From: Deltaproteobacteria bacterium
GTDB lineage: Bacteria > Desulfobacterota > Desulfobaccia > Desulfobaccales > 0-14-0-80-60-11
DNA length: 50,043 bases
NCBI GenBank assembly: GCA_026388765.1
Contig: JAPLJC010000197.1
Span: forward strand, 1 to 50,043
Reading direction: 5' to 3'
Of the stretch, positions 20,431 to 44,829 are shown piece after piece. A program made the position numbers and the translations under genes. Below the pieces are notes generated by a model that did not search any database, was not told where the DNA came from, and worked only from the letters and a program-made list of their open reading frames with translations. Positions within the stretch are counted from its first letter, which is position 1. Each line of letters begins with the position of its first letter.

Positions 20431-20672
20431 TTCCCCCGCGGCGCTCATGAAATCAGCGACTAAGACCGATCATTAAGATCACAAAGGCAGCGGACGGCCA
20501 CGGGAAAATTGATGGCTGGAGTGAGCTCTCGACCGGTTCCTGCTTAATCTCTCAACAGAGATCAACTTCTGTGATATGATATACTGAGACAGGAAAGGAT
20601 TCTGTAAGTAAAGACAGCAACCAAATCCGAAACAGAGACAAACTGCTGACGGGTTTGGGGAGGTTTAACCCA

Positions 20673-25644: not shown

Positions 25645-26937
25645 GTGTACTGGGACGCGTCCATTGAAACCATAAAACCCGCGGATTTACAAGTTCTGCA
25701 GCTTCGACGGCTCAAAGAGACGATCAGCCGCGCCGCGCTGAGCCCCTTTTACGGCCAGCGCCTGGCGCAGGCTGGGGTGAGCGCCGCCCAGATCAACCGC
25801 CTGGACGATATTCGACGGATTCCCTTCACCACCAAAGACGATCTGCGGGCCCGGGGCCGGGAGATGCTCACCGTGCCCCTGACGGAGATCGTGCGGCTAC
25901 ACGCCTCCTCAGGCACCACCGGCCAGGCCACCGTGATCTATTACACCCGAGGGGACATCAAGGCCTGGGCGGACCTGGTGGCCCGCTCCATGTATATGAC
26001 CGGGGTGCGACCGGGGGACGTGTTCCAGAACATGATGGGCTACGGCCTCTTCACCGGCGGGCTCGGCTTCCACTATGGCGGCGAGCGGCTGGGAGCCCTC
26101 ACTATCCCGGCCGGCGCCGGCAACAGCACGCGGCAGCTCCAACTCCTGCAGCAATTCGGCAGCACCGTGGTCCACATCATCCCCAGCTTCGCGCTTTATC
26201 TATTGAACACCTTTGCCAAACACGGGCTCGATCCCCGGGACTTGCCGCTGCGCATCGCCTTCATCGGCGCCGAGCCCCATTCGGAGGAGATGCGCCGGCG
26301 CATCGAGGCGGCCTATGGCCTTAAGGCTTACAACTCCTATGGCCTCTCGGAAATGAACGGCCCGGGAGTGGCCTTTGAGTGCCCGGAGCAAAACGGCCTG
26401 CACGTCTGGGAGGATTCTTTCCTGCTGGAGGTGGTGCAACCCCAGACCCTGGAGCCGGTGGGTCCGGGGGAGGTCGGGGAACTGGTCTTTACCAATCTCA
26501 CCCGCCAGGGGATGCCGTTACTCCGCTACCGCACCCGGGACTTGGCCTCCTTTGACGACCGCCCTTGCGCCTGCGGCCGGAGCTTCCGGCGGCTGTCCCG
26601 CATCCAGGGCCGCAGCGACGACATGCTCATCGTCAAGGGGGTCAATATCTTTCCATTGCAAATCGACCAGGTCCTCATGGCCATGCCCGAGGTGGGCAGC
26701 CACTACCTGGTGGAAGTGAGCCGGGAGGATTTTAGCGACCTGATGCACGTCAAGGTGGAGGTGCAGGCGAATTTTTTCCAGGAGGATCTCAAATATCTCA
26801 CCCGGTTGCAGAAACGCATCACCGAGGCGCTTAAAAACGAACTGCTGGTGACCCCTCGGGTGGAATTGGTGGAGCCCAACATCCTGCCTCGTAGCGAAGG
26901 CAAGACCCAGCGGGTGGTGGATAAGCGCCCCAAATGA
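25645..26937 (+). CDS. paaK: Phenylacetate-CoA ligase-family AMP-forming enzyme
   Basis: Protein of 430 residues, usual for PaaK. It activates an aromatic acid with ATP and CoA through an acyl-adenylate in the cytoplasm. Motifs are the P-loop-like SSGTTGQATVIYYT, the YGLSEMNGPGVA adenylate segment, YRTRDL and the C-terminal hinge GRSDDMLIVKGVNIFP. GTG start at 25645 is preceded by AGGAGAAG. No other phenylacetate-degradation genes are adjacent, so the physiological acid may be phenylacetate, indoleacetate or another arylacetate made during amino-acid fermentation. Terminal Lys region (EGKTQRVVDKR) is kept. Confidence 0.9.
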   Translation: MYWDASIETIKPADLQVLQLRRLKETISRAALSPFYGQRLAQAGVSAAQINRLDDIRRIPFTTKDDLRARGREMLTVPLTEIVRLHASSGTTGQATVIYYTRGDIKAWADLVARSMYMTGVRPGDVFQNMMGYGLFTGGLGFHYGGERLGALTIPAGAGNSTRQLQLLQQFGSTVVHIIPSFALYLLNTFAKHGLDPRDLPLRIAFIGAEPHSEEMRRRIEAAYGLKAYNSYGLSEMNGPGVAFECPEQNGLHVWEDSFLLEVVQPQTLEPVGPGEVGELVFTNLTRQGMPLLRYRTRDLASFDDRPCACGRSFRRLSRIQGRSDDMLIVKGVNIFPLQIDQVLMAMPEVGSHYLVEVSREDFSDLMHVKVEVQANFFQEDLKYLTRLQKRITEALKNELLVTPRVELVEPNILPRSEGKTQRVVDKRPK

Positions 26938-27013: not shown

Positions 27014-27100
27014 GGAGGGATGGCCGAGTGGCTTAAGGCGGCGGTCTTGAAAACCGCAGAGCGCTGAGCTCCGTGGGTTCGAATCCTACTCCCTCCGCCA
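27014..27100 (+). tRNA. tRNA-Ser (anticodon TGA)
   Basis: Acceptor GGAGGGA pairs with TCCCTCC. Anticodon stem GCGGT/ACCGC encloses CTTGAAA, anticodon TGA at 27048-27050. A long variable arm (GAGCGCTGAGCTC) is present and CCA is encoded. Confidence 0.96.
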
Positions 27101-27180: not shown

Positions 27181-27272
27181 GGAGAGATGACCGAGCGGCC
27201 GAAGGTGCTCGCCTGCTAAGCGAGTGTGGGGAGAAATCTCCACCGAGGGTTCGAATCCCTCTCTCTCCGCCA
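27181..27272 (+). tRNA. tRNA-Ser (anticodon GCT)
   Basis: Acceptor GGAGAGA pairs with TCTCTCC. Anticodon stem CTCGC/GCGAG encloses CTGCTAA, anticodon GCT at 27215-27217. The long variable arm GTGGGGAGAAATCTCCAC is a clear hairpin, and CCA is encoded. A T-run follows directly. It is the last housekeeping gene before the accessory island. Confidence 0.96.
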
Positions 27273-27410: not shown

Positions 27411-27608
27411 TTGCCCAGTCTTAAGTCCGGAGAGATTCTGGCCCTGGTGGGCCTCCTGCTGCTGATAGTGCACAACCTGGGGCGCCGCCAGCTGGTTAAA
27501 GCCGGTAAACCGGTCCGGGGTCTGACCCGTTTCTGGCTGATCTGGGGAGATCTGGTGGTGTTTCTGATCATCCTGGCGGGGCTGACCCTCATTTGGGCCC
27601 ATAAATAA
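27411..27608 (+). CDS. Small two-helix membrane protein (65 aa)
   Basis: TTG start at 27411 with AAAGGGGAG six bases upstream. The product has two hydrophobic helices (EILALVGLLLLIVHNLG and FWLIWGDLVVFLIILAGLTLIW) joined by a short basic loop with GRRQLVKAGKP. Both ends would be on the same side of the membrane. It lies between tRNA-Ser and the island repeat. I do not recognise a family. Confidence 0.5.
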   Translation: MPSLKSGEILALVGLLLLIVHNLGRRQLVKAGKPVRGLTRFWLIWGDLVVFLIILAGLTLIWAHK

Positions 27609-27663: not shown

Positions 27664-29619
27664 GACTGCCATCTAATTGCGACAACTATCACTTTTGCTG
27701 TCCGGCGCGTCTGTGATAAGCTTGAAGCCCTGGGACCGGCATTTTCATTCGTTTACCAGTGATTACCCATGAAGCCTGCTGAAACCATCAAAGAGAAGAT
27801 CAGGCACAGCCTCCACTTGGAGCGCGCCCTGCGCTTGGTGTGGCGGAGCGCCCCGGGCTGGACCGCGGCCAATTTCGGGCTCATCCTGATCCAGGGCCTG
27901 CTTCCCCTGGTTTCTCTCTACCTGATGAAGCTCATTGTAGATGCGGTCACCGCCGGCTTGGTTGCCCCTGAAAAATCCGCGGCCTTAAGTAAAGTCATCC
28001 TCCTGATCGCCAGCGCGGCTGCCGTAGCTTTGTTTGCCGCCTGCTGCCGCTCCCTCACGGAGATTGTCAAAGAGGCCCAGACCCAGGTGGTCACTGACCA
28101 CGTGGCCGACGTCATCCACGGCAAGTCGGTGGCGGTGGACCTGGAGTATTATGAGGACCCCAAGTATTACGACACCCTGCACCGGGCCCAGCAGTAGGCC
28201 ACGTACCGGCCGACCAGCATAATGAATAGCCTGATGCAGTTAGGTCAAAGTGGCATCTCGCTTTTAGCCCTGGCAGGGTTGCTGATCTCGTTTCGGTGGT
28301 GGTTTGCCGCCATGCTCTTTGTGGCTACGGTCCCCGGGGTTTTGATGCGCTTGAAATACGCCAAACAGATGTACGATTGGCAGCGCCAGCACACCCAGGC
28401 TGAAAGGCGGGCCTATTATTATCACTGGATGCTCACTGACGGCAGCCATGCTCAAGAGATCCGGCTCTTTGGCCTGGGTTCGCTTTTCATGGATTGGTTC
28501 CGGGAGTTAAGAAAGAAGCTCCGGGTTGAAAAGCTGCAAATTTCCGCCAGACGGTCCTGGGCGGATTTGATCACCCAGGCTAGCGCCACCGTGGCGATTT
28601 TCGGAGCGCTGGCTTTTGTTGCCTTCCAGACAATTAAGGGGGCCATCACCATCGGGGATATGGTTATGTACTACGGGGCCTTTCAGCGGGCCCAGGGATC
28701 TCTTCAGGAAATCTGGACCAGTCTGACTAGCCTGTACGAAGACAACCTGTTTCTTGCCAATTTCACCGAATTCCTCGATCTCCAACCCAAAATGGCGGGG
28801 CCTCTCACCCCCACACCGGTTCCCCGCCCCATCAAGCAGGGCGTCCTGGTACAGGGCGTCAATTTCCAATATCCCACCGGAGAAAGAACGGTACTGGAGG
28901 ATATCAACCTCCAGATCCTACCCGGCCAGGTGGTGGCCTTGGTGGGTGAGAACGGCTCGGGAAAAACCAGCCTCATCAAGCTGTTGTGCCGGCTTTACGA
29001 TCCGGTGAGCGGCCTTATCACCATAGACGGCACGGACTTGCGCCAGTTTGATCCCAAGACCTTTAGGGGGGAAGTGAGCGTCATCCTCCAGGATTACGCG
29101 CATTACTGCCTGACCGCCCGAGAAAATATCTGGCTGGGGGACATCGGCCTGAACTCCCGGGATGAGAAGATTTTTGCCGCAGCCCGGCAGACAGGAGCCG
29201 ATAATTTTATCCAAAAGCTGCCTCGGGGCTACGAGACGGTGCTGGGTCATGAGTTTGAGGACCAGGGAGAGCTCAGCGTGGGCGAATGGCAGAAAGTGGC
29301 CCTGGCCCGGGCTTTCCTGCGAGAAGCCCAACTAATCATTTTGGATGAGCCGACGAGCTGGATGGACGCCCGGGCCGAATACGAGGTCTTTAAATCCTTC
29401 CGGCAAATTTATCAAGGCCGCATGGTTCTGCTCATCAGTCATCGTTTTTCCACAGTCAGGCTGGCAGATTATATTTATGTATTGGAAAATGGACGGATAA
29501 TCGAAAGCGGTACTCATAGCGAGTTAATTCAGAGGGGCGGCAAGTATGCGCGGTTATTTGAAATGCAGGCGAGTTCTTATCGCTAAAGAAAGTTTTACTA
29601 ACTTGGGAAATAACTGAAT
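27664..29619. repeat. Long direct repeat, left copy (about 1.95 kb, contains ABC exporter gene)
   Basis: From GACTGCCATC at 27664 through the spacer, the whole ABC gene and about 33 bases beyond its stop codon, the sequence recurs in the same orientation at 39252-41205. Identity is high at both ends and low in the middle. The two copies enclose about 9.6 kb of accessory DNA. Confidence 0.9.
27769..29586 (+). pseudogene. ABC exporter (fused permease-ATPase), copy 1, amber-interrupted
   Basis: A half-transporter of 605 codons: six-helix membrane domain at about 1-320, then the ATPase with Walker A GENGSGKT (from codon 393), Q-loop ILQDYAHY, signature ELSVGEWQ, Walker B LIILDEP and H-loop ISHRFS. 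Codon 143 is TAG (28195-28197), where copy 2 has GAG (Glu). The frame is otherwise intact from 27769 to 29586. Known: such exporters work as inner-membrane dimers moving lipids, peptides or glycans. Inference: a single G-to-T nonsense mutation, or readthrough or sequencing error. A second product could start at ATG 28222 but would lack the first membrane helices. Confidence 0.88.
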
Positions 29620-30100
29620 GTAACCTTCCTTTGCCAATTTCTTAGCCCCTGAGATTATGGTGCGAAATCCTGCCTGCTCTAATTGAAGCAAAATTGGGGT
29701 TATTTTCTTTAGAAGGCCAGCTCTTTTCGCCAGCAACAAGACACTTATGGTGCCTCGAACAGGAAGATTCAAGGACAGGGCGCAAATTCCTGGCGGCACG
29801 GTCATCAAGGATTACTTCGTACCCTGGGTTTTCATAAGCCCAGGCCTGAACCTCGGTCTCCCACAGACTAAGATTCCAGGCGATGACCACCGATGGTATC
29901 ACCTGCATTTCACGAACCAGTTCCTGCCCATGAGATAGCAGCCATTGTCTGGCCGGGTAATCTTTAGGCCCCTGGGCGATCTCCTGTACCACTCCGGCCG
30001 GCACTACGAGCTCTTCAGCCACCTGCTGGAGCAGAAAGAGATGGTTAATCCAGGCCAGGACGATGAGTGGAGAAGCATTTACCGCCCATTTTTTAGGCAT
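29554..30100 (-). pseudogene. DUF3368 PIN-like toxin, frameshifted
   Basis: Starts ATG 30100 and reads as a DUF3368 protein (NASPLIVLAWINHLFLL, VVPAGVVQEIA, ILDDRAARN). At about 29788-29792 an extra T (AATTTGCGCC where AATTGCGCC fits) shifts the frame. In the other frame the family sequence continues (CALSLNLPVRGTISVLLLAK, LLKKITPILLQLEQAGFR). The restored frame runs past the usual family end and overlaps the ABC gene by 33 bases, so the tail may be damaged too. Known: DUF3368 proteins resemble PIN-domain nucleases and pair with UPF0175 antitoxins. The start overlaps the antitoxin by eight bases. Inference: an inactivated toxin. Confidence 0.8.
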
Positions 30101-30347
30101 CTACTGCTTCCTTGGCAATTTCTTCGGGAGTCACCTGGAAAGGCGAGACTTTGAAACGATTGAGTGCCACCAGGAACTTCTGACGACTTACCCCCGCTAG
30201 TTCCGAAGCCTTGGATTGAGATATCATCCCCAATTCATACCACTTCACAGCGGCGGCAAGCCGCAACTCCCCGACAAATTCGGTGGGACTTGTCCTCAGG
30301 AAGGAAAAGGCATCCTCCGGCAGGTCTATGGTAAGTTGTATGGTCAT
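30093..30347 (-). CDS. UPF0175-family antitoxin
   Basis: Protein of 84 residues with the UPF0175 helix-turn-helix pattern: the MISQSKASELAGVSRQKFL segment near residues 41-59 is the DNA-binding part. The N-terminal beta strand (TIQLTIDLPEDAF) is typical. It is the first gene of a two-gene unit, its stop overlapping the toxin start (ATGCCTAA). Known: these are antitoxins of DUF3368 toxins and probably repress their own promoter. This gene appears intact while its toxin is broken. Confidence 0.8.
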   Translation of the reverse strand: MTIQLTIDLPEDAFSFLRTSPTEFVGELRLAAAVKWYELGMISQSKASELAGVSRQKFLVALNRFKVSPFQVTPEEIAKEAVDA

Positions 30348-30720
30348 GTGGGTACTCCTTACACAAATTCTACGCTATTTGATAGGATCTGGAAATATGT
30401 AAGTATATCAGGAATTACCGATTTTTTCTCAGGCCAGCACCGCCACTCCCTCACGCCCCTAAAAATCTATCACCTTGACTTTGAGACGCGGGGGTTCGCT
30501 GGGCTCCTGGGCAAAAGGAATGATGACTCCCCTTTCTCGTTATTCCAAGTAAATTCCTGCCGTCTCAACAGGTCAAGAAAATTTATCGTCGGCCATCATG
30601 GCCAAGTTACGGGATTGACAGTCTAACCCGTCAAACCATTGGTAATTGGAAAAACCTCCGGTGAAACTTGGGATCCACAGGGGGTGAAGGAGAGGGCGTC
30701 CAGAATATCCTGGTGGCAGG
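30348..30720. other. Intergenic region, no supported gene
   Basis: About 370 bases between the antitoxin promoter side and the next minus-strand gene. Open frames on both strands lack ribosome sites and recognisable sequence. The 5' part (30348-30400) should hold the antitoxin promoter. Confidence 0.4.
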
Positions 30721-31026
30721 TCAGATCTGCTCGCCTTCTGGGTGTAGGCAAGTTAAAGACGGTAACAGCGCCGGGAGTTCTTCCTTGGCCAGGGCCCCGA
30801 CAATATCATAGTTGATACCGAAATAGTCGTGCACCATCTTGTTCCGCATCCCGGCCATTTCCTTCCAAGGCAGGTGTGGGCGCGCCTGTTTTAACGGGGC
30901 TGAGAGCCTCTTCACTGCCTCTCTTAGCACTTGCAGATTGCGGAGCACCGCGTCCTGGGTCTTCCGGTCTACTAGGAACTCCTCATATGTAAGCTCCCCG
31001 GTATAGGAGATAATGCGCTGGACCAC
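30721..31026 (-). CDS. HEPN-domain (HepT-like, DUF86) protein, N-terminus probably lost
   Basis: A HepT-like HEPN protein. The RX4HXY motif is intact in RNKMVHDYFG, preceded by the usual RKTQDAVLRNLQVL segment. Translation from GTG 31026 lacks the first helix turn: the sequence upstream keeps reading in frame as RRDREYLADALEV back to 31062. There the codon expected to be ATG is AGG (plus-strand CCT at 31060-31062). Known: HEPN toxins cleave RNA and are neutralised by MNT partners that AMPylate the Tyr of the motif. Inference: start codon lost, perhaps a silent gene. It follows the damaged MNT gene. Confidence 0.65.
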   Translation of the reverse strand: MVQRIISYTGELTYEEFLVDRKTQDAVLRNLQVLREAVKRLSAPLKQARPHLPWKEMAGMRNKMVHDYFGINYDIVGALAKEELPALLPSLTCLHPEGEQI

Positions 31027-31051
31027 CTCCAGCGCATCGGCGAGATATTCC

Positions 31052-31392
31052 CTATCGCGCCTCTTCCTGGACCTCGGCCATGGACTCCTGGATGTTCAAG
31101 GCGATCTCACGATAGCGCCGAGAGGTCAAACTTCGCCGGAACGTTTCAAAGGTGACCAAATCTACCTTGCGCCCGAGCTTCCGCTCCAGATATTGGGACA
31201 GGGACACGAACTCCAACCCCAGGGGGCGGGAGAGTTCCACCAGCAGGTCCACATCGCTGTTCTCACCCGCGGCGCCGCGAGCGAAGGACCCGTAAAGGGA
31301 GAGGCGCACACGCCGTACCGCCGTCTGAGGTACGGCAGGGCCAGCCGCAGTCTCTTAAGCACTGCTTCCCGAGTCGTCGATAGCTGCTTCAC
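31052..31392 (-). pseudogene. MNT-type nucleotidyltransferase (MntA-like), frameshifted
   Basis: The catalytic part reads LSLYGSFARGAAGENSDVDLLVE, cut here to GSFARG and SDVDLLVE, matching the GSX10DXD motif. The N-terminal helix (STTREAVLKRLRLALPYLRR) is in a different frame, joining at about 31306-31312 in RRYGV; one base seems to be missing. From ATG 31309 only a truncated enzyme starting RLSLYGS could be made. Start of the intact gene would be GTG 31392 or 31398. Known: MntA AMPylates its HEPN toxin partner. The stop lies next to the HEPN gene. Confidence 0.7.
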
Positions 31393-31547
31393 GGTCACCG
31401 GCGGAGGAGAAAGAATCCATGAATCGGCAAAAAAGGCGCAATTTCTAACGGACACTACTGATTGGCAACTTAATCCTGGCCGCATCCACCTGGGATCGTC
31501 AACCCGATATTCAGTTAATAGCGAGTAATTCAGGGAAATCTTCGCGG

Positions 31548-31898
31548 TCAGGGGGCTTCGCGCTGCTGCTCTTCCAGGATCTGTTGCACTTGCCGCCGCA
31601 ACTCCGGCAGACGACGCCGAATCGTTTCCCACACCAGCGGCACGTCCACCCCAAAGTAAAAGTGAATGAGGCGGTCCCGCATCCCGGCCATCTCCTTCCA
31701 GGGCACTTCGGGATATTGTTCCCGGATAACCTCAGGCAGGCCCTTGGCGGCTTCGCCGATAATCTCAAATTTTCGGATCACCGCACTCAGGGTTTTGTCG
31801 TCCTCTTGAAAGGCTGCAACATCAAAACCCGCGGTAAATGCCTGAATGCTGTCAAGGGCCGCCAGAATATCCTTTAGGTATAAAACGGCATTTCTCAT
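31548..31898 (-). CDS. HEPN-domain toxin (HepT-like, DUF86)
   Basis: Protein of 116 residues from ATG 31898. It has the full HEPN helical bundle with [21 protein letters not shown] and the RX4HXY motif [10 protein letters not shown]. Its start overlaps the stop of the upstream nucleotidyltransferase by four bases (ATGA), the normal order for MntA-HepT units. Known: HEPN toxins act as RNases and their Tyr is modified by the partner. The pair is intact, unlike the neighbouring pair at 30721-31392. Confidence 0.85.
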
Positions 31899-32188
31899 AC
31901 CGGCACCGCCTGGGTCAGCGCCTCGTCCCGAATCTCCCGGCGCAGCGCCCGACGGGGCACTACGTCCACCGGACAGCCCAGCTTTTCTTCCAGGAACAGC
32001 CCCAGCCCCACCAGGTCGAACAGGGTGGCGCCTTCGGCGAAGTCCACCAGCAGGTCCACATCGCTGGTAGGGCCTTGCTCCTGGCGGGCCAGTGAGCCGA
32101 ACAGGGCCAGTGCCCGCACCCGGTACCGCTCCGCCAGTTCCGCTTTCAAAGGTCGGAGCAGGTTCATTACTTGGCTTCGGGTCAACAT
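31895..32188 (-). CDS. MNT-domain nucleotidyltransferase antitoxin (MntA-like)
   Basis: Protein of 97 residues. The GSX10DXD active-site motif is [19 protein letters not shown] with both catalytic aspartates, preceded by a helix ([21 protein letters not shown]). Known: MntA transfers AMP from ATP to the Tyr of the HepT RX4HXY motif and so silences the toxin. The four-base overlap with the HEPN gene suggests coupled production. It is the first gene of the unit; its promoter should lie within 32189-32300. Confidence 0.85.
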
Positions 32189-32461
32189 TGGTCACTACCA
32201 CATGAGGGGTTGAGGGAGGCGGCGGTCCGGTTGGCGGAGATCGACGCGACTGCCGCTCTCAAACTCCATTTTATACCTTTACCTTTAAGCGGCCCAAGGC
32301 TGGAGTCCCATCCCAATCTTTTGAGTACGCCTTCCCGGTGGCGGGATTAATCTTCATGAAAGGATTCCCGCCCTTTTACCCAGGCTGTGGATAGTTTATG
32401 GCGAACAGGCGGGGATAGTCAATCCTTTAATTAAGGGTGGCAAGGCTGCCCCTCCCTCAGG

Positions 32462-33514
32462 TTACTGGCCCTCGATCCAGTCTATCACCATTGCGGCGCT
32501 GTCGTGATCCAGTTCCTCCAGTTGGCTAACGTTGTGGCCTTGCAAGATTAGGCCGAGGTCGATGTCCTTCTCCGCACATCCTAAGCGGATGGCCTGCAGT
32601 TGATCCGGGGCAGCGGCCCGGGGCAGGAGACTGGCAGGCGAAGCTGGCGTCACGGGGGCCTCGGCCTTGGGGGCCCGGCCCCGTTTGACTTTGGTTTCTG
32701 GTTCGGGGGTTGCCGCTGTGGGCCTTTTTTCCTGAGCCTCCGTGGCTGGGAACAACTGTTCTGCCGTGGCCTGGCGGTCTTTGAGTTGGGAGGCCAGTCC
32801 CCGGAGAGCCGCGATGTCCTCCGAATCCCACTCGATTTTCGGTTTTCCCAAGACGGCGATCACCCGAGCATCGCTGATGCCGTAACCCGCTAAAAACTTC
32901 AGGGCCCTCTCCGTGGCCGCAGCCAAGCCTTCCTTGATGATGCCTTTCAACACCGTTTCTTTGGCCCGGTCTTTGGCCTGATCTGTGAGCCAGCGGGGTA
33001 CTCCCGCCAGGACCACATTGCGGATAGCCCGGCTTTGGGCCGCCTGGAAGGTCATGTCTTCGGCCCGGTCATCCTCCAGTTTCTTGAAGGCTCCATTACC
33101 CTTCTTTTTGCGAAAGACCCGGGAGACGGTGAAGCCTCGCTCCAGATCCACGACGTGGGCATTGAACACCCATTCCGTCGGGGTTTCATAGTATTCCACC
33201 GGCACGGCGCAGTTGCTCCACTCCCGGGCCACAGCCATGGCCAGACCGATGGAAGGGCCTTCGATCTTCTTGCCGTCCCTGGGAAAGGAATAATAAAAGG
33301 CATCCCCGGCAAATTCGGCTTCCCGCAGCACCGCGGCTACCACCTTATCCAGATTGCGGGGCCGTTGTACGGCCATGGCGGTATGAAATTGGGTTTGGGA
33401 TCGGATCAAGGGGACGGGAGGATTAGCGGTCCCGGCCGGATAGTTTTCAGCTTCACCGGTAAAGGGCTCCACTCCCGCAAAAGTGACAAACGCTTGGCAT
33501 TTAGTGATTTCCAT
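32462..33514 (-). CDS. Phage-type protein, putative recombination (strand-annealing) function
   Basis: Protein of 350 residues. The core (KIEGPSIGLAMAVAREWSN, DMTFQAAQSRAIRNVVLAGVP, ISDARVIAVLGKP) resembles a widespread family of phage/prophage proteins whose members I know as uncharacterised or putative recombinases. A low-complexity Ala/Pro/Lys linker and a small C-terminal helical domain follow. It is three bases downstream of a Cas4/RecB-like nuclease gene. Inference: the pair could be an annealing protein plus exonuclease, as in lambda Red-like two-component systems; other ssDNA-binding roles are possible. Cytoplasmic. Confidence 0.55.
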   Translation of the reverse strand: MEITKCQAFVTFAGVEPFTGEAENYPAGTANPPVPLIRSQTQFHTAMAVQRPRNLDKVVAAVLREAEFAGDAFYYSFPRDGKKIEGPSIGLAMAVAREWSNCAVPVEYYETPTEWVFNAHVVDLERGFTVSRVFRKKKGNGAFKKLEDDRAEDMTFQAAQSRAIRNVVLAGVPRWLTDQAKDRAKETVLKGIIKEGLAAATERALKFLAGYGISDARVIAVLGKPKIEWDSEDIAALRGLASQLKDRQATAEQLFPATEAQEKRPTAATPEPETKVKRGRAPKAEAPVTPASPASLLPRAAAPDQLQAIRLGCAEKDIDLGLILQGHNVSQLEELDHDSAAMVIDWIEGQ

Positions 33515-33517
33515 GAC

Positions 33518-34300
33518 CTATCTCCATTTGAGCGAGTATTTACAGGTCCAGAAGTAGCCGCACCACGAGGGGGAGCATACCCAGGAACCGGGATCGCAGG
33601 GCGGAAATAATCCCGCCCGGATCTGGGCCAGCAATAGATGTACCCTTAAGATTAAATTGGCCCAGTCCTCCGGCCCCCGCGTAGTGGGCAAGGACTGCAG
33701 TTTTGGTTCTTTGTTGTTCACCAAGATTTCCAGGCTGATCTTCTCCGGCCATTTCCCGGTGTGGTGGGCCACCAGCCCGGCATAAAAGGTGAGCTGCAGG
33801 GAGTGGTCGGCCTCCCCGCTGGACTTGCTCTTGTCGGCGGTCTTCAGGTCCGGCAGCCAATGCGCCTCGGTGAGCACGTCGATGGTCCCCTGGAGGGGTA
33901 AATCCAGACCCACATCGAGACTGAGCTGTTCTTCCACCAAGGTGGGCTGAATGGCCGGGGCCAGGGATTCCCGGTAAAGCTTGGTGAGCCGCACCGCCGC
34001 CTCTAAACCAGCGGTTAAGAGTTGCTCTTTCTCGGAGATTCGATCTTTGGGGATAAAGACCCCTTCTTCCTTGACCTGCTTCACGTAATGATCCCGGGCT
34101 GCGTCCTGGAGATCGCCTACCGGCAGATCTTCCTTGGTGTGCAGCTTCTGTTCGTGGTTGATCTGGGCGGCTTTGTGAGTCGCCGAGCCCCGGCGGGCGG
34201 CGATTCCTGGGGGGATGGTCTCACCTCGGAGATAGCGGCGCTCAAACTGCTGGGGGCACCTTAAGAACATGCCCAGCATCGATTGGGTTATAGCTTTCAT
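33518..34300 (-). CDS. PD-(D/E)XK nuclease, Cas4/RecB-like, probably Fe-S
   Basis: Protein of 260 residues. N-terminal SMLGMFLRCPQQFERRYLRG and GSATHKA provide one Cys and a catalytic His. The nuclease core has GTIDVL, the DLKTADKS segment (D-x-K) and QLTFYA, a RecB motif. A Cys cluster lies at the C-terminus (CDPGSWVCSPSWCGYFWTCKY, in which CSPSWCGYFWTC is the key part). One N-terminal plus three C-terminal Cys is the pattern of 4Fe-4S Cas4/AddB-type nucleases. Known: such enzymes are exonucleases on DNA ends. No cas genes or CRISPR array are present, so it is a phage-like repair or recombination enzyme. Confidence 0.75.
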   Translation of the reverse strand: MKAITQSMLGMFLRCPQQFERRYLRGETIPPGIAARRGSATHKAAQINHEQKLHTKEDLPVGDLQDAARDHYVKQVKEEGVFIPKDRISEKEQLLTAGLEAAVRLTKLYRESLAPAIQPTLVEEQLSLDVGLDLPLQGTIDVLTEAHWLPDLKTADKSKSSGEADHSLQLTFYAGLVAHHTGKWPEKISLEILVNNKEPKLQSLPTTRGPEDWANLILRVHLLLAQIRAGLFPPCDPGSWVCSPSWCGYFWTCKYSLKWR

Positions 34301-34331
34301 CTGATTTCTCCTCGAAAAACTTGTTAAACTT

Positions 34332-34583
34332 TTAGTGAAAAATCCCTTTGCCGCCCATTGGTCGTGATCGGCGTTGGCGGCACGCTTTCTTGAATATAGG
34401 GTCGGCTCGGTTTTTGATTTCTCCAGGGCCGCAAGGGTTTATCGTCAGTCCATTGGCCATCTGTAACCTGCTTCCGGGGTTTTCAGGAGGAAAGACCATT
34501 GCCAAACAGGCCTTTGGCTTTGGACCTCGATCTTGACCTAAAGTCTCCGATCTCCCGAGTTCCTCTGGTGGGTAAAAGATCAT
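34332..34583 (-). CDS. Small hypothetical protein (83 aa)
   Basis: ATG 34583 overlaps the stop of the upstream zinc-ribbon gene by four bases (ATGA), which is the main support. The product is basic and Pro/Gly-rich (SRLQMANGLTINPCGPGEIKN) with only two cysteines. It lies 32 bases before the nuclease gene in the same transcript. I do not recognise a family. Confidence 0.4.
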   Translation of the reverse strand: MIFYPPEELGRSETLGQDRGPKPKACLAMVFPPENPGSRLQMANGLTINPCGPGEIKNRADPIFKKACRQRRSRPMGGKGIFH

Positions 34584-34999
34584 TTTTTCTCTGTAGCCAA
34601 TTTTTCCAACTCAGCCAGTAGAGACCTCATTTGGGCTAACCTCTCATGCCACTCCATTTCAATTTTCTCCCGCGTCTCTCCCGGAAATTCTCGCGAGTTA
34701 CGGATCTTCCTCTCCAGATTCTCTTTATCCTCCAGGAGGGCAATATCTTCTTGCACCACCAACCGCGACAATTCCAGGGCCGGCTTGCCGGTGAGCTGCT
34801 CCAATCTGGGAATTTTCTCGGGGTCCAAGAGATCTACGGGCGGTATCACTAACAGGGCATTAAAGATATCATAAGTGCAACCATCGCAAATCGGCTCGGC
34901 TAACAGAGTCTCCCAAACCAGGAAATCTTCATCCACATGATCAGGACAAAAAGGACAACGATAACCCTCTGGCACCTTAACCCACCTAATTTTGCTCAA
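34580..34999 (-). CDS. Zinc-ribbon-like hypothetical protein with C-terminal coiled coil
   Basis: Protein of 139 residues. Two CxxC pairs (CPFC near residue 15 and CDGC near 38, separated by about 20 residues) form a likely zinc ribbon. The second half is a long charged helix (DIALLEDKENLERKIRNSR and EIEMEWHERLAQMRSLLAELEKLA-type heptads). It is probably the first gene of the transcript ending in the recombination pair. Function unknown; zinc-ribbon proteins near phage replication genes often bind DNA or polymerase. Confidence 0.6.
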   Translation of the reverse strand: MSKIRWVKVPEGYRCPFCPDHVDEDFLVWETLLAEPICDGCTYDIFNALLVIPPVDLLDPEKIPRLEQLTGKPALELSRLVVQEDIALLEDKENLERKIRNSREFPGETREKIEMEWHERLAQMRSLLAELEKLATEKK

Positions 35000-35954
35000 G
35001 ACGTCCTCCCTTAAACCGAAATTAAATCTCGACCGCGCCTGCTATATATTCAGATTAGGCCCCGAGAAATTAACCGCTAAGCCAATTTTTTTTTCATTTT
35101 TTTTGATAATTGAGTCGGCTACCTTAATTAGTTAAATAATTTCCATGTGTTATTCACACGGATTTTTTACGCCTCCCCAATATTCTGGTGATACTCCGTG
35201 CCGGGGGTAGCACTTCGACTTATGCTCTCTGCCGGTCACGGAAAATCTGCCGAGCTATCGGGCAGCTGATTGCCACAGACCATTACCACCCGGATTACCA
35301 TACCTGGAGGCCCCTGCCGTTCTGGAGGCGGCTAGGCGCCAGGTCTTACCGCGTGTGTAGGGTAGCGGCAAAGTGATCAGAGCTTGGCCAGCTGGGCTCC
35401 CTGCCCCCGCGGCAGCTCTAGCCTCGATTAGGGTGCAGGATTAAATGATCGCCTGCAAGTTACCGGTTCTGGTGGCCATAGCCGGGCCCGGGGTAGGCCA
35501 CTAACTCCTGAGGAGGCTCCAGGCTGGCGATTAGAAATCCGCCTCCACCCTGCTGGGAGCTCTTCCTGGATTTCAAGTGCCAGGGGCAGGGAATGGATTA
35601 TCTCAGGGAATCATCAGGGAAGGTTCGATCGGGCTGGAAGGGGTCTTTGAAGAGGAGTTCACCCACCGCATTGCCTTACATACTGGGGCTGGTTTCTTAA
35701 ATCGCCAACAGGTGGCTACCTGGGTGGGGGGGATAGCTTCGCCTCACCGCGGGTGCGGCCAGGTACCAGGGCCGCAGGGCGGTTGGGATGGCCGGAGACC
35801 AATCCGGCCTTGCCCATCTGGCCACCCCTGCTTGCCGGGTAGATCTAGGATAATCCAGGCCTGCTACCAAGGGCTAGTCCCGGCCGGAAAAAGCGGCTGG
35901 TCCGCCTGAATTAATAAAAAACCCTGCCCCTCCTGAATACGGGCACAACCACCC
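35000..35954. other. Long island spacer without a supported gene
   Basis: About 950 bases. The first 160 bases are AT-rich with long T-runs and probably carry the minus-strand promoter of the zinc-ribbon gene. The remainder is GC-rich but open frames on either strand are short, lack ribosome sites and match nothing I recognise. It may be eroded coding DNA. Confidence 0.4.
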
Positions 35955-36967
35955 TCAACCGCGGCGTTTATCCAACAATTTGCTCCTAACTCCCGAGCCA
36001 GGCGCCGGTGGGCCTTTGAGCTGGTAGTGCCCATAACTGATCCTCTCAATAATCCCTTGTTTAATCATCTTTTTCAGCAGGTTACCCACGTTAGCACTCT
36101 TTTTGCCCAGGGCCTGGGCGATATCCTGTTGTCTCAAGGGCTCAGATGCCTTTTTAAGGAGATCCACAATCTCCTGCCTTTCCGGAGTGAGATGATTCCC
36201 CTCGGTTTGCTCCCGAATCTCCCAAATGCCGGTGGTTTCATCAAATCTCAGGGCCAGCTCAGCTTCCTTCTGATTCCGGCCCGAAATCAAGAGGGTAGCC
36301 TCCGTTTGCAAGCGTTTACGATTCAAGAGGGCAATGGTATCTGCGGCGCCGGTCAGGCCGGTGGAGCCACTCACCCGATCAAACTCGTCCCCGGCCCCAG
36401 TTTTCCGCAAATGGTGCACCAAAACTATGGCAATTTTACGACTAGTGGCGATGTCTTTGAACTTAGAGATGATCTCATAATCGGCATGATAATTCCCCTG
36501 ATTCAGGTCGCAAATCTTTCCGAGGATATCAATCATTACCAGCTTGGTCTCCGGGTGCTTCACTAACCATTCGTCCAAATCTTTCAAGCCGCCAAGCGCA
36601 CGCGTGAGCCACTTGAATATTATATGAAGCCTATCCGGAGCAGCAGCACTGCCAAGCACCTTCTGAAGCCGCTGCTTCATATCAGCAGGCGTATCTTCCA
36701 GGGCTAAATATAAGACATCATGGGCCGGCACCTCAACCCCTAACACCTTGCCACCGCTGGTACTCCCAGGCCAATGTGCAGACACAAATAAGATTTGCCG
36801 ATCTTCGGTTTGGAGACCAGTAGGGTAACACCTTGGGAGATGAAGCCGGGCACAAGGGTGGTTGGCTCAGAAGAATCCAGGTCCATAATTTGCTGGGCCG
36901 TGTAGGTGGAGGGCCCACCACCATAACGTCTTACATGATCAGCTAAAGACATAATTTTTCTCCTCAT
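35955..36967 (-). pseudogene. RepA-like AAA_25 ATPase with C-terminal winged helix, paralog 1, frameshifted
   Basis: The first part (36967 to about 36750) has the N-terminal segment IMDLDSSEPTTLVPGFISQG and an intact Walker A SKPKIGKS. Around 36745-36775 the frame shifts, and the rest continues in another frame: GGKVLGVEVPAHDVLYLALE, Walker B KLVMIDILGKI, LVHHLRKTG and SGSTGLTGAADTIALL. A C-terminal winged-helix domain follows (ALGKKSANVGNLLKKMIKQG). Known: AAA_25/RepA-like ATPases act as replicative helicases or helicase loaders of plasmids and phages. Inference: inactivated by a single-base indel. Upstream sequence resembles that of paralog 2. Confidence 0.75.
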
Positions 36968-37167
36968 GATTAATTAGGCCTTCCAGTAAAGGGGAAGGCT
37001 GGCAACTCATTTTCTTTTTCACTGGGTAACCCCCTTAGTATCAGTCCTGATTCTCTCCCAGGACTTTAAGATTTTGAGATAATGATTATCTCCGGTATTT
37101 TTTTTGTGGACCACATCAGCAAGCCTAAAATATAAGATATTTAATACCTTGGCACCGATGGGTGGCC

Positions 37168-37386
37168 TCATTGATCTCGGGGTCTAGGCCCCCCCTGAGC
37201 GACCGGCTTGGTGGCCCCCATCCGCAGATTCATGGTCTCTCCGCTTAAACTTCTCGGAAGTTTCACTGACACGTAAAGATATAACCAGTGATAATGATTA
37301 GCCTTATGCCATAGATTCACTACTTTCACCGCATTTTCCGTGACCCCCACCCCCAGGCCGGCCAAAAGTTCATTGGAAATTCTCAT
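37168..37386 (-). CDS. Small hypothetical protein (72 aa)
   Basis: ATG 37386 overlaps the end of the ATPase gene by 17 bases and is followed by a 72-codon frame (VVNLWHKANHYHWLYLYVSV). Support is weak: no ribosome site beyond the coding overlap and no family. It may be translated by coupling or may be chance. Confidence 0.25.
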   Translation of the reverse strand: MRISNELLAGLGVGVTENAVKVVNLWHKANHYHWLYLYVSVKLPRSLSGETMNLRMGATKPVAQGGPRPRDQ

Positions 37387-38449
37387 CGCAAAGGGATTCG
37401 ATATCTTTGCTTATCTTGGCTGATAAACGGTCAATAGCCGCGTCTAACTCTTCCGGCGTCATCATCCGTTGCCTTTTCTTGGATATACGGCCTTCCACCT
37501 GCCAGGGTTTATGGGAGTAATCCATAAGGCAGTAATGCCCATGGTAGGGCTTCCTGATAATCCCTTGTTTACGCAACTGGGTGAGCAGGTTGGCCACATT
37601 AGTTTTGCTTTTACCCAACTCCTCGACAATGGCCTGGTGGCGCCAAACGCCCGGCTTTTCCCGGAATAGGGTCACGATCTCTTGCCTTGCCTGTGTTAGA
37701 CGCGATTCTCTTCCTGGACTCGGCCCCTCCCAACCGCCCGTAGTCTTATTTAAGGCCAACTCCAGCCTCTTACGATTACGGCCTAAAATACTGAGAGTGG
37801 CCCCCCTTTGGTAGGGCCGGCGATCCAAGATGGCAAAGGTATCGATCGCCACGATCATGCGGGTCGATCCGCTAGCCGGATCAAAGAAATCTGCCAAGCC
37901 GGCCTGCTGTGGGTGGTGCACCACCACCAGAGCGATCTGGTAGCTAGTGGCGATGGATTTGAGCCTGCTAAACTGCTCCTGACCGGCCTCGTCAGGCCTC
38001 TGCTTCCGGCTGCGGTACATCTCGATGAATACCAACCGGGTCTCAGGATTGGCGGTTAACCTGGCTTCCAGCTCCTCGAAGCCTGGCTCGTCCAGGTGCA
38101 TTGATTTGAAAACCATCTCAAGCCGAACCGGGCAATCAGCACCCTGGAGCATCTTTTTAAGGCGCTCCCGCGTCCGCGGCTCGGTGGCTTTGGGGGCCAG
38201 ATACAAGACCTGCTGGGCTTTTACCTCCGTGCCGAACACCTTGCCACCCCTGGCCACCTCCAGGGCCAGGCCCAGACCCAAAATAGGCATTCCCATTTTG
38301 GGTTCAGCTACCATTACGGTTACCCCTGGAGAAATAAATCCGGGAACAATGCTGGTCGCTTGCGGGGTCTCCCCTTCCCTAACCTCATCAGTTGCATGGC
38401 TGCTGGACTCCCGGTCAATAATTGTCTTAACTTGGTCAAATAATGTCAT
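37370..38449 (-). CDS. RepA-like AAA_25 ATPase with C-terminal winged helix, paralog 2, degraded Walker motifs
   Basis: Protein of 359 residues from ATG 38449 (AGGAG upstream). Same layout as paralog 1: PGFISPGVTVMV, nucleotide-binding region, HHPQQAG and SGSTRMIVAID, winged helix (ELGKSKTNVANLLTQLRKQG), plus a short C-terminal extension. The Walker A position reads AEPKMGMPILG where paralog 1 has SKPKIGKSYLC, so the catalytic Lys and Ser/Thr are gone; Walker B Asp is Glu (LVFIEMY). Inference: full-length but unable to hydrolyse ATP; perhaps only a DNA-binding relic. Confidence 0.7.
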   Translation of the reverse strand: MTLFDQVKTIIDRESSSHATDEVREGETPQATSIVPGFISPGVTVMVAEPKMGMPILGLGLALEVARGGKVFGTEVKAQQVLYLAPKATEPRTRERLKKMLQGADCPVRLEMVFKSMHLDEPGFEELEARLTANPETRLVFIEMYRSRKQRPDEAGQEQFSRLKSIATSYQIALVVVHHPQQAGLADFFDPASGSTRMIVAIDTFAILDRRPYQRGATLSILGRNRKRLELALNKTTGGWEGPSPGRESRLTQARQEIVTLFREKPGVWRHQAIVEELGKSKTNVANLLTQLRKQGIIRKPYHGHYCLMDYSHKPWQVEGRISKKRQRMMTPEELDAAIDRLSAKISKDIESLCDENFQ

Positions 38450-38637
38450 ATCCTGCTCCTCTTGATTAGGCCTGCCTTCTATTGGGCGGCCTATTAGTTT
38501 TTTTGGGCCAGATAATCTGCTTGTCGTTGTGGTCGGCTTCCTTCTCCGGCGACAAAATTCGGGATCGGAAGCTCCCGGCATCTGCCTGACCCTCTTCCCC
38601 TTCCCAATTATTCGATGATTAACACTTGGGACAGTAA

Positions 38638-38677
38638 GGCTAATTTCTTTGAGATTTGGCTAATTTCTTTGAGATTT
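38638..38677. repeat. Perfect 20-bp tandem repeat
   Basis: GGCTAATTTCTTTGAGATTT occurs twice in a row (38638-38657, 38658-38677), about 190 bases upstream of the paralog 2 start. It is suitable as a pair of protein-binding sites or iterons, or is a slippage duplication. Confidence 0.9.
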
Positions 38678-38837
38678 AGATAGGTTGAGGATTTTGGCTC
38701 CATCTTGGGGGGAATCTGCCCCAAAATTTATTTTCTTTCACCGTAATTTTTTTGCCTAAAGATAAAAAAGTTGCGGGAAAGGCTATCCGTACCCCTTGAT
38801 CGGGAACTAACTCCAGGCCTATTGGGAGGGGCTGGGG

Positions 38838-39030
38838 GATGGCGGTTTTTTCACCGGCGGCCTCGACCCGAAGGGCGGGCGGTACCTTCTTGAACTGGCT
38901 GAACGATCGCACGTCAAAGGTATTCGTGATCGCCACCTGCAATGATTACACGAAGCTTCCCCGGGAATACAGCCTGATTGGGTGGGATGCCATCCTTTTC
39001 GTGGACCCCCCGGCGTTGGCTGAAGGATGA
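38838..39030 (+). pseudogene. Fragment of an AAA+ ATPase (Ycf46/FtsH-like)
   Basis: On the plus strand the frame reads GGTFLNWLNDRTSKVFVIATCN, shown in part as TFLNWLNDRTSKVFVIATCN, followed by YTKLPREYSLIGWDAILFVD. This is the sensor-1/arginine-finger region of AAA+ ATPases, where family members have FLTWLNDHTSxVFVVATxNDxxxLPPE and RxDAxFFxDLP. The usual RxDR region is shortened to IGWDAI, and a stop follows at 39028. No Walker motifs are found upstream, so only a remnant of about 60 residues survives. Further eroded sequence may extend to about 39240 in other frames. Confidence 0.6.
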
Positions 39031-39251
39031 AATATTTTGGAAATTTACCTGCCTCAGTTTAGCGGTACTGAGGCTGCAAAGTAACGGCTGCCATAACTGG
39101 ACGATTTTGGGGGACCAGAGATCGGGTAAATCGCTATCGAGGCGGATTTTAACGTCAGGGTCTGCTACCGAAGAGCGCCTTTCCATATATCCAAAGAAAG
39201 TGGGCAATTCACCAGGAACTGCTTATATACTTTTCTTTTAAGCCCATCAAA

Positions 39252-41205
39252 GACTGCCATCCAGCGCGACAAGTATCACTTTTGCGGTCCGGCGCGTCTG
39301 TGATAAGCTTGAAGGCCTGGAACAGGCATTTTCATTCCTTAACCAGTGATTACCCATGAAGCCTGCTGAACCCATCAAAGATAAGATCAGGCACAGCCTC
39401 CACTTGGAGCGCGCCCTGCGCTTGGTGTGGCGCAGCGCCCCGGGCTGGACCGCGGCCAATTTTGGGCTCATCCTGATCCAGGGCCTGCTTCCCCTGGTTT
39501 CTCTCTACCTGATGAAGCTCATCGTAGATGCTGTCACCGCCGGTTTGGTGTCACCTGAAAAATCCGCGGCCTTAAGTAAAGTCATCCTACTGATCGCCAT
39601 TGCGGCTGCCGTAGCTTTGTTTGCCGCCTGCTGCCGCTCCCTCACGGAGATTGTCAAAGAGGCCCAGACCCAGGTGGTCACTGACCACGTGGCCGACGTC
39701 ATCCACGGCAAGTCGGTGGCGGTGGACCTGGAGTATTACGAGGACCCCAAGTATTACGACACCCTGCACAGGGCCCAGCAGGAGGCTACTTACAGGCCGA
39801 CCAGGATAATGAACAGCCTGATGCAATTAGGTCAAAGCGGCATCTCGTTGGTAACCATGGGAGGTTTGCTAGTCGTATTTCGCTGGTGGGTTGCTGCCAT
39901 GCTTTTGTGGCTGCGGTCCCCGGGGTTTTGATACGCTTGAGATACGCCAAACAGATGTACGATTGGCAGCGCCAGCATACCCAGGCTGAAAGGCGAGCCC
40001 ATTATTATCATTGGATGCTCACAGACGGGGGCCATGCTCAGGAGATCCGGCTCTTTGGCCTGGGTTCGCTTTTCATGGATTGGTTCCGGGAGTTAAGAAA
40101 GAAGCTCCGGGTTGAAAAGTTGCAAATTTCCGCCAGGCGTTCCTTGGCGGATTTGATCACCCAGGCCAGTGCCACGGCGGCGATTTTCGGAGCTCTGGCT
40201 TTTGTTGCCTTCCAGACAATTAAGGGGGCCATCACCATCGGGGATATGGTTATGTACTATGGGGCCTTTCAGCGGGCCCAGGGATCTCTTCAGGAAATCT
40301 GGACCAGTCTGACTATCCTTTACGAGGATAACCTCTTTCTCGCCAACTTTAGCGAGTTTCTCGATCTCAAGCCAAAACTCGTGGAGCCACCTACTTCAAC
40401 ACCTTTTCCGCGCCCGATAAAGGAAGGGATTCTCCTGAATCAGGTCAATTTCCATTATCTCACCGGGGAGAGAGGCGTGTTGGAGGATATCAGTCTCCAG
40501 ATTTTGCCGGGCCAGGTAGTGGCCCTAGTGGGTGAGAATGGCTCAGGTAAAACGACTCTTATCAAGCTCCTCTACCGGCTCTATGACCCGGTAAGTGGCA
40601 ATATATCCATTGACAAGATTGATCTGCGCCAATTTGATCCCGGCGACATAAGGCGAGAAGTCAGCGTCATTCTTCAAGATTACGCCCACTACTGCCTGAC
40701 GGCGCGGGAGATTATCTGGCTGGGAGACATCAGCCTAAACTCCCGGGATAACAAGATTTACGCCGCGGCCCGGCAGACAGGAGCCGATGATTTTATCAAA
40801 AAGTTGCCCCGGGGGTACGAGACCGTTTTGGGTCATGAGTTTGAGGACCAGGGAGAGCTCAGCGTGGGCGAATGGCAGAAAGTGGCCCTGGCCCGCGCTT
40901 TCCTGCGAGAAGCCCAACTAATCATTTTGGATGAGCCGACGAGCTGGATGGACGCCCGAGCGGAATACGAGGTTTTTAAATCCTTCCGGCATATTTTTAA
41001 AGACCGCATGGTTCTGCTCGTCAGTCATCGCTTTTCCACAGTCAGGCTGGCAGATTATATCTTTGTATTGGAAAATGGGAGGATAATCGAAAGCGGTACA
41101 CATAGCGAGTTAATTCAGAGGGGCGGTAAGTATGCGCGGTTATTTGAAATGCAGGCGAGTTCTTATCGATAAAGAAAGTTTTGCTAACTTGGGAAATGAC
41201 TGAAA
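39252..41205. repeat. Long direct repeat, right copy (about 1.95 kb, contains ABC exporter gene)
   Basis: Same-orientation counterpart of 27664-29619, including about 100 bases upstream of the ABC start codon and about 33 bases after the stop. It marks the right end of the island. Confidence 0.9.
39356..41172 (+). pseudogene. ABC exporter (fused permease-ATPase), copy 2, frameshifted
   Basis: Begins with the same MKPAEPIKDKIRHSLHLE start as copy 1 and has Glu (GAG 39782-39784) where copy 1 has a stop. At 39902-39906 the run reads GCTTTTGTGG where copy 1 has GCTCTTTGTGG: one base is missing, so the first frame ends at 39931. The rest continues in another frame to 41172 with Walker A GENGSGKTTL, signature LSVGEWQ, Walker B LIILDEP and H-loop VSHRFS all intact. 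Inference: independently inactivated paralog. No slippery heptamer suggests programmed shifting. A start at 39886 would give a half-length protein lacking the first membrane helices. Confidence 0.88.
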
Positions 41206-41983: not shown

Positions 41984-42541
41984 GTGTTAAGAAATGTTCA
42001 AGAGGGCAATCCACTTTCGTTGCAAGCACAGCCAGAAAACTTTCTACCCTGGTATATAATTCACACATGCAGCCGTCATGAAGCCAAGGTCGAAGCTGGT
42101 CTGACTATGAAAGGTCAGGAGGTCTTCCTCCCCAGAGTAATGGTGCGCAGCCGTCGCCAGGACAGATTAAGGATGCTGGAAGTGCCTTTATTTCCGGGAT
42201 ATCTCTTCGTGCATACCGACCTCAGTTACTCAGACTACTATCATATTATTAGGCAAGACGGAGTGGTCCGCATCTTGGGAATCAAAGGTCAGTGTACCCC
42301 GGTGCCCGAAGAGACGGTGGCCAGCATTCGGACGTTGGTGAACAGCGGCCAGCCAATCTTTACCTGGTCCAAATTAGCGCCAGGCAAACGCGTGCGGGTA
42401 GTAGACGGCCCCCTGGCTGGCGCAAGCGGGGTTATTTCGCGGCTTAAAAAAGGGAATAGGCGTTTGGTGGTAGGTGTGGAACTCTTGGGACGATCAATAT
42501 GCGCAGAGTTAGCTGAGGAAAGCGTTGAGGTTGATGAATAA
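41984..42541 (+). CDS. UpxY/RfaH-family transcription antiterminator (NusG paralog)
   Basis: Protein of 185 residues. The NusG N-terminal domain covers about 20-115 (WYIIHTCSRHEAKVEAGL, FLPRVMVRSRR, LFPGYLFVHTDL) and a KOW domain is near residues 130-175 (GKRVRVVDGPLAGASGVI). Known: such paralogs open surface-polysaccharide operons and bind polymerase at ops-type sites to suppress termination across the operon. GTG start 41984 has AGGA nine bases upstream. Its position at the head of an export operon and the ops-like element upstream fit that role. It is likely self-recruiting. Confidence 0.88.
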   Translation: MLRNVQEGNPLSLQAQPENFLPWYIIHTCSRHEAKVEAGLTMKGQEVFLPRVMVRSRRQDRLRMLEVPLFPGYLFVHTDLSYSDYYHIIRQDGVVRILGIKGQCTPVPEETVASIRTLVNSGQPIFTWSKLAPGKRVRVVDGPLAGASGVISRLKKGNRRLVVGVELLGRSICAELAEESVEVDE

Positions 42542-43474: not shown

Positions 43475-43644
43475 TTCTAAAGAGATTCCATAACCTGGGG
43501 CCGTCTTTCTGGTCAAGGTTGGGATGATACGAAAAAGCACCCATTTGGAGCAAATTAACCCTTCTCTTGAGTAATCTTAACTATCTGGACTCGATTCTGC
43601 CACCTTTTTATGAAGGACGCCCCAACCTTGAAGGAAGACTCAAA

Positions 43645-44829
43645 ATGCCCAAGAGACTGATCGAAGCATGTACAGCTCTTTCCGGCCGAAAAGTCGGAGA
43701 CGGAAATGATTTTTCACTAAAACAGCCGGCTGGAAGCCCTATATGGGGCTCCATCGTCCTTATACTCATAGGATTAGGTCTCATGATAGGTTGCGCCGCC
43801 CATCAGGCCCGCATGCAGGAGCTGGCCCAGGGTCCTTCGCAGCAAGTCCTCACGTCCCAGGCCTTATCGAAGATGCAGGCCCCGGACCCCAACAAGGAAT
43901 TGCAACAGCAGCTCATGGTGCAGGCATCCCGGGCTTCCCTGGTGAATTATAAAGATTATCAGGTGGGACCGGAAGATCAACTATCCATCATCATTTTCGG
44001 CCAGGACAATCTCAGCCGGGAGCTTCGGGTGAACGGCCAGGGAGAGATCGCCATGCCGCTGGTGGGGGTGGTCAAGGTAGCAGGCATGACTCCCCAAGAG
44101 GTCCAAAAACGGTTAGAGGAACTCTATAACGCCCGCTTCCTGGTGAATCCGCAGATCACGGTGACCGTCAAGGAATTCCGCCACCAGCGGGTGGCCGTCA
44201 CCGGCGCGGTGGCAAAGCCCGGGTCCTATGAAGTCATCGGACCCCGCACCCTGCTGGAAGTGTTATCCCTGGCCGGCGGGTTGGCGAGCCAAACCAGCAG
44301 CATACCAGCCGGGGACGTGATCACTGTTATCCGGCATCCGAACGCCCCTGAGCCGGCCGGGACGGGGAAGGCGGGGACCTCCCGGACTTCTACCCCGCTG
44401 GCAGAAACCGTGGTGGTGGTGATTGACATTCGTCGCTTGGTAAGCGGGCGGTCACCGGAGTTGAACATCCTGGTGGGCAACGGCGATGTCGTTGATGTCC
44501 CCTTTGCCGATACTGCCTATGTCATGGGGGCAGTTAAACAGCCGAAGAGTATCGCAGTCAAGGAAAACCTGACCGTGTCCCAGGCCGTGGCGTTGGCTGG
44601 AGGCGTCGACCCCCTATTAGCGTCAAGCAGTATTAACATTATGCGCTTTGATAAACAGGGAAATCCCACGAGCATTAAAGTTAATTTGAAAAGCATCATT
44701 GCCAGAAATGAGCCGGATATTCCGATTAAAGGCAGCGATGTGGTAGTGGTCAACGAGAGCACGGTGAAAATGGCTTTATATCTTTTCAAGTCCTTAATAC
44801 CTCAGCCCGCAATTCCCATTCCTTTTTGA
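43645..44829 (+). CDS. Outer-membrane polysaccharide export lipoprotein (Wza-like)
   Basis: Protein of 394 residues from ATG 43645 (AAGGA upstream); an earlier TTG at 43567 is less likely. The signal region is preceded by a basic stretch and ends at IGC, a lipobox with modified Cys. The poly-export domain follows (YQVGPEDQLSIIIFGQDNLS, GEIAMPLVGVVKVAG), then SLBB domains (VAVTGAVAKPGSYEVIG, AYVMGAVKQPKSIAV). Known: Wza-type octamers span periplasm and outer membrane as the exit channel for capsule or exopolysaccharide. It precedes the tyrosine kinase by 33 bases. Confidence 0.9.
   Translation: MPKRLIEACTALSGRKVGDGNDFSLKQPAGSPIWGSIVLILIGLGLMIGCAAHQARMQELAQGPSQQVLTSQALSKMQAPDPNKELQQQLMVQASRASLVNYKDYQVGPEDQLSIIIFGQDNLSRELRVNGQGEIAMPLVGVVKVAGMTPQEVQKRLEELYNARFLVNPQITVTVKEFRHQRVAVTGAVAKPGSYEVIGPRTLLEVLSLAGGLASQTSSIPAGDVITVIRHPNAPEPAGTGKAGTSRTSTPLAETVVVVIDIRRLVSGRSPELNILVGNGDVVDVPFADTAYVMGAVKQPKSIAVKENLTVSQAVALAGGVDPLLASSSINIMRFDKQGNPTSIKVNLKSIIARNEPDIPIKGSDVVVVNESTVKMALYLFKSLIPQPAIPIPF

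Follow-up and report, generated by a model that had tools for sequence, protein, structure and literature searches.

A putatively decaying accessory region between two mosaic copies of an ABC exporter gene in a deltaproteobacterial genome

At the wzy locus of Salmonella Typhimurium DT8, repeats in the same orientation allow loss of DNA by recombination, and a circular form is found there; the repeats are 113 bp long, perfect, and noncoding, and excision has been demonstrated by PCR and by repeat deletion (PMC12074656). In Mycobacterium tuberculosis, duplicated PE/PPE genes swap tracts by homologous recombination, and this conversion has been seen directly between outbreak isolates (PMC12046097). 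The locus described here resembles both systems. It lies in a 50,043-nucleotide stretch of deltaproteobacterial DNA, the whole of which we refer to as the window, that corresponds to contig C181 of a 3.7-Mb draft genome in 263 contigs. Like the wzy locus it has repeats in the same orientation, but these are 1.95 kb long, 89% identical, coding, and mosaic, and the excision that they would allow is predicted from the sequence. Like the PE/PPE genes, its duplicated genes appear to have swapped tracts, but here the exchange is deduced from mosaic ancestry that crosses genera and, unlike PE/PPE conversion, it may include import from outside.

Sequence comparison places the repeats at 27664–29620 (copy 1) and 39252–41204 (copy 2), both on the forward strand, with 9.6 kb of DNA (29621–39251) between them. 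This confirms the description in an earlier note on this DNA of same-orientation repeats of ~1.95 kb that carry ABC exporter genes and enclose ~9.6 kb, and its other descriptive statements also hold: ARAGORN and Rfam find twin tRNA-Ser genes shortly before copy 1, and family matches agree with the toxin–antitoxin, HEPN-MNT, and phage-like genes that it listed in the interior. Each repeat consists of one ABC exporter gene with flanks of ~105 bp on its 5′ side and ~35 bp on its 3′ side. Because the repeats encode only the exporter, and no insertion sequence with a transposase, the arrangement is not that of a composite transposon. The gene in copy 1 (27769–29586, forward; ~605 codons) has an in-frame amber codon at 28195–28197, gene position 427, while the gene in copy 2 (39356–41172, forward) is frameshifted by one missing base at 39903/39904, gene position ~549. 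PF00664 (ABC_membrane) and PF00005 (ABC_tran) are found in one gene, which, judged by these domains, is a fused permease–ATPase of the MsbA/peptide-exporter superfamily. It does not qualify as the MsbA lipid A exporter itself, since the intact homologue in a relative (G014) scores 277 bits against an NCBIfam equivalog cut-off of 602, and decoding of the amber as pyrrolysine was rejected as well, a search of the genome for PylS giving only a subthreshold match of 22.5 bits versus 178. The differences between the copies are mainly synonymous (dN/dS 0.14), which indicates that both genes were under selection through most of their history and that the lesions are either recent or errors; some of them could be assembly errors. 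The same genome holds a third copy of the gene, a shredded remnant at 7655–7986 of contig C17 (locus L047, G000:C17), ~0.8 kb from a tyrosine recombinase (integrase) gene and close to further genes that resemble phage or plasmid replication genes.

Taken together, our analyses make it probable that the window contains an accessory region in decay, with a recombining copy of a roaming ABC exporter gene at each end, and that ordinary homologous recombination could delete it. The gene content of the 9.6-kb interior, which lies on the reverse strand except where stated, shows a patchwork, as far as family matches and reading frames reveal it, of toxin–antitoxin cassettes and a phage-type recombination/replication module in which several genes are broken. 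From 29621, which immediately follows the last base of the repeat, the sequence is homologous to the toxin–antitoxin cassettes of two relatives (G002 and G013). The toxin gene (29626–30124), a PADLOC PDC-S70 match of DUF3368-like type, changes frame near 29785, relatives' versions being open, and is followed by a gene matching the UPF0175 antitoxin family (PF03683; 30093–30347). Two pairs of neighboring HepT-like and nucleotidyltransferase genes come next. In pair 1 the HEPN gene (PF01934; 30721–31026) neighbors an MNT nucleotidyltransferase gene (PF01909; 31052–31398) that is split near 31306, again with open versions in relatives, while pair 2 (31548–32188; MNT at 31895–32188, HEPN domain in the open reading frame 31548–32201) looks open. 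Beyond a protein without a family match (34580–34999), whose cysteine pairs CPFC and CDGC suggest zinc binding, lie two genes for AAA_25 (RepA-like) ATPases. The first (35955–36967) is frameshifted between 36740 and 36785; the second (37370–38581), which shares short DNA stretches of 71–73% identity with it, is apparently its diverged duplicate, and beside it is a perfect 20-bp tandem pair at 38638–38677. The last interior feature is the remnant of an AAA ATPase gene on the forward strand (38827–39185), whose counterparts in relatives, such as that at locus L117, are open. Homologues of this gene occur once or twice in many genomes of the family, in varied places. The suspicion that a repeated 170-bp element at 38827–39059 might be an RNA was discarded, as Rfam gives no match and relatives show it to be part of the AAA ATPase gene.

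The phage-type module comprises a gene resembling those for single-strand-annealing proteins (32462–33514; phrog_3657) and a PD-(D/E)XK exonuclease gene (33518–34300; PF12705 and phage exonuclease families), both of which look intact. Genes of the same two types are neighbors in Gordonia phages, at ~28% identity to those of the window, and in the uncultivated viral contig IMGVR_UViG_3300033149_003577, where they are adjacent in the same order and ~40% identical. Within the phylum the module was found in only one other of 297 genomes. No phage structural gene or integrase was recognized among the window genes scanned, no viral contig encoding the second AAA_25 ATPase was found, and a search of a plasmid collection with the interior returned weak AAA matches only. 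As a unit the island is present in none of 22 family genomes, among which only single cassettes recur. Outside the repeats, eight long open reading frames (16676–18085, 18486–19811, 20655–21953, 21953–24409, 25645–26937, 43567–44829, 44863–47148, and 47321–49354) are open, which argues against a general indel error, the integrity of flanking and interior genes being compared here by reading-frame length only. Overall, the interior looks more like a graveyard than a working island.

Recombination between the two copies could delete this interior as a circle, as the earlier note proposed. The geometry that it relied on is sound: the copies have the same orientation, and they share eight identical runs of 50–137 bp, compared with a minimum of 23–90 bp for RecA recombination as cited in PMC12074656; however, no joined scar was found among the 22 family genomes, one per species. 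Deletability of this kind would be an ordinary consequence of the bounding repeats rather than the product of a dedicated mobility system, and the idea of excision is itself one of ordinary bacterial recombination. A further element of the proposal, that the scar might be a hybrid ABC gene free of both lesions, fails on the chromosome because of the order of the lesions. In the chromosomal scar, the 5′ portion of the gene would derive from copy 1 and the 3′ portion from copy 2, such that the frameshift persists if the crossover precedes the amber, the amber persists if the crossover lies beyond the frameshift position, and both persist if it falls between them; the chromosome would in every case retain a damaged ABC gene. 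The circle receives the complementary portions and escapes both lesions only if the crossover falls between them, a distance of 122 bp in which identical runs reach no more than 11 bp, and an intact ABC gene on an excised circle is consequently unlikely. As for rescue by conversion, which the earlier note also raised, to remove one lesion without gaining the other a conversion tract must have one of its ends within the same 122-bp stretch.

These observations bear on the alternative of a reversible switch, in which RecA-dependent recombination between the ABC copies would regularly excise the island. In its favor, the repeats share an orientation and eight identical runs of at least 50 bp, and in Salmonella Typhimurium excision and a detectable circle result from a repeat pair of 113 bp (PMC12074656). 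We nevertheless regard the switch as unlikely: neither scar nor circle was seen in any genome examined (22 family genomes), the copies differ by ~11%, no single crossover restores the chromosomal ABC gene, and the genes of the interior are decaying.

The reading of a decaying region between recombining gene copies also draws on the ancestry of the copies themselves. Along the gene, the two are 96.6% identical in segment A (gene positions 1–415; dS 0.10), 84.5% in segment B (415–590; dS 0.42), 95.1% in segment C (590–960; dS 0.19), 75.8% in segment D (960–1476; dS 1.40), and 95.0% in segment E (1476–1816; dS 0.16). Segment D, which in copy 1 spans 28729–29243 on the forward strand at the start of the nucleotide-binding domain, is thus ~515 bp of sequence 76% identical to copy 2 within a gene that is mostly ~95–97% identical between the copies. 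In trees of segment D, copy 2 groups with the gene of G014, a member of a different genus, with support of 100/99, and a clade of the two copies is rejected (p-AU 2.9e-5); in trees of segment A, the two copies group together with support of 97/96, and a clade of copy 2 with G014 is rejected (p-AU 3e-5). These p-values are somewhat optimistic, as the segment limits were chosen after viewing the identity profile. In segment B, copy 1 hints at an affinity with the genes of G010 and G017, and the clade of the two copies is not rejected (p 0.07). A tree-free clustering test points in the same direction: 118 of the 201 differences between the two genes fall within one 480-bp window, against a maximum of 81 in 5000 shuffles, although uneven constraint along the gene would cluster differences too. 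Because the copies are alike over most of their length (dS 0.10–0.19) but not in segment D (dS 1.4), these trees and distances show that recombination among members of the ABC gene family shaped both copies. The ~105-bp 5′ flank is common to both copies and absent from relatives, which favors duplication within this lineage. A simple recent duplication of the entire 1.95 kb is rejected by the segment trees; duplication as the earlier note envisaged it is too simple for the mosaic ancestry. Gene conversion between two older copies may have homogenized everything outside segment D, or a younger duplication may have been followed by replacement of segment D of copy 1 from outside; with six genomes, the two routes are indistinguishable. 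The locus offers a clear, tree-tested case of terminal genes, paralogous or imported, that exchange sequence while the accessory region between them decays.

A single-crossover (Campbell-type) integration, in which circular DNA brought its own copy of the ABC gene, crossed over with the resident one, and left hybrid genes at both ends, could also bring a foreign-looking segment between two such copies. The ancestry of segment D does differ between the copies that bound this foreign-looking DNA, an element of this type would be a possible source of the phage-type annealing-protein and exonuclease genes, and homology stops abruptly just outside the gene. Against this, the mosaic shows at least two separate divergent tracts rather than one switch point, the two copies have similar short flanks, which means that the incoming copy would have had to come from the same locus, and no ABC-bearing replicon was found, the viral and plasmid collections having been searched with the interior only. 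We therefore consider integration by this route improbable. That the assembly turned one ABC gene into two copies around unrelated DNA, through strain variants or a mis-join, is a very slight possibility, for although the contig belongs to a draft assembly of 263 pieces and short-read graphs struggle with an identical run of 137 bp, so that a mis-join of the copies could occur, the ~200 differing positions are of purifying type (dN/dS 0.14), each copy has its own distinct flanks within one 50-kb contig, and eight long flanking genes are open.

The surroundings of the region also distinguish it from an integrative island at a tRNA gene. The two tRNA-Ser genes, with anticodons TGA (27014–27100) and GCT (27181–27272), lie on the forward strand, but the last 12–20 bases of each occur once in the window and thus mark no attachment site; the genome has 19 matches to the tyrosine integrase family (PF00589), none of them on this contig, and there is no serine recombinase among the scanned interior genes. 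Neither an integrase within the element nor a repeated tRNA 3′ end is therefore present. Between the tRNA genes and copy 1 is a small membrane-protein reading frame (27411–27608, forward), homologues of which (loci L101, L102, L105, L110, and L114) come after tRNA-Ser(GCT) in G020 as well as in four genus g3 genomes. In genus g3, tRNA-Ser(GCT) and this small reading frame are separated by an MFS transporter gene of 1.4 kb, which indicates that the spot is variable. On the right flank, a gene matching RfaH/UpxY-type antiterminators (41984–42541, forward) leads an exopolysaccharide cluster.

A single intact homologue of the ABC gene is found in each of five relatives (G002, G010, G013, G014, and G017). 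In all five it is the same 605-amino-acid gene, 78–88% identical in DNA, but, unlike in the window, it stands in unrelated surroundings (loci L043, L044, L007, L045, and L046) and is accompanied by no interior island. Its neighbors, named from their translations rather than by family searches, are valS and a molybdopterin gene in G002, hemL and a transporter gene in G010, a DegT-type aminotransferase gene and sugar genes in G014, moaA in G017, and a secretin gene cluster in G013. Homology between the loci of any two relatives is limited to the coding region and at most ~15 bp outside it, and this is true even of G010 and G017, whose ABC genes are 92.5% identical. Two of the sites can be compared with unoccupied counterparts. 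In G010 the gene lies within a 3.7-kb insert between hemL and the transporter gene, a pair that without the insert is spaced by ~290–400 bp in many relatives, as also in the genome studied here, and in G002 the two genes that neighbor the ABC gene of G014 are only 8 bp apart with no ABC gene between them (the DegT–rmlA empty site). These comparisons point to an exporter gene that has changed place in every relative examined. A broader conjecture, that the gene moves through genomes of the family as a lone unit and that islands such as this one arise when two insertions meet and recombine, is doubtful. The insert in G014 also contains an epimerase gene and that in G010 contains dispersed repeats, and the term “lone gene” thus applies to the shared part only. 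Two MITE-like families of dispersed repeats of 120–140 bp, represented at L043 (3248–3396) and L044 (9590–9713), occur in many copies in genomes of genus g3, and one of the two has a palindromic core.
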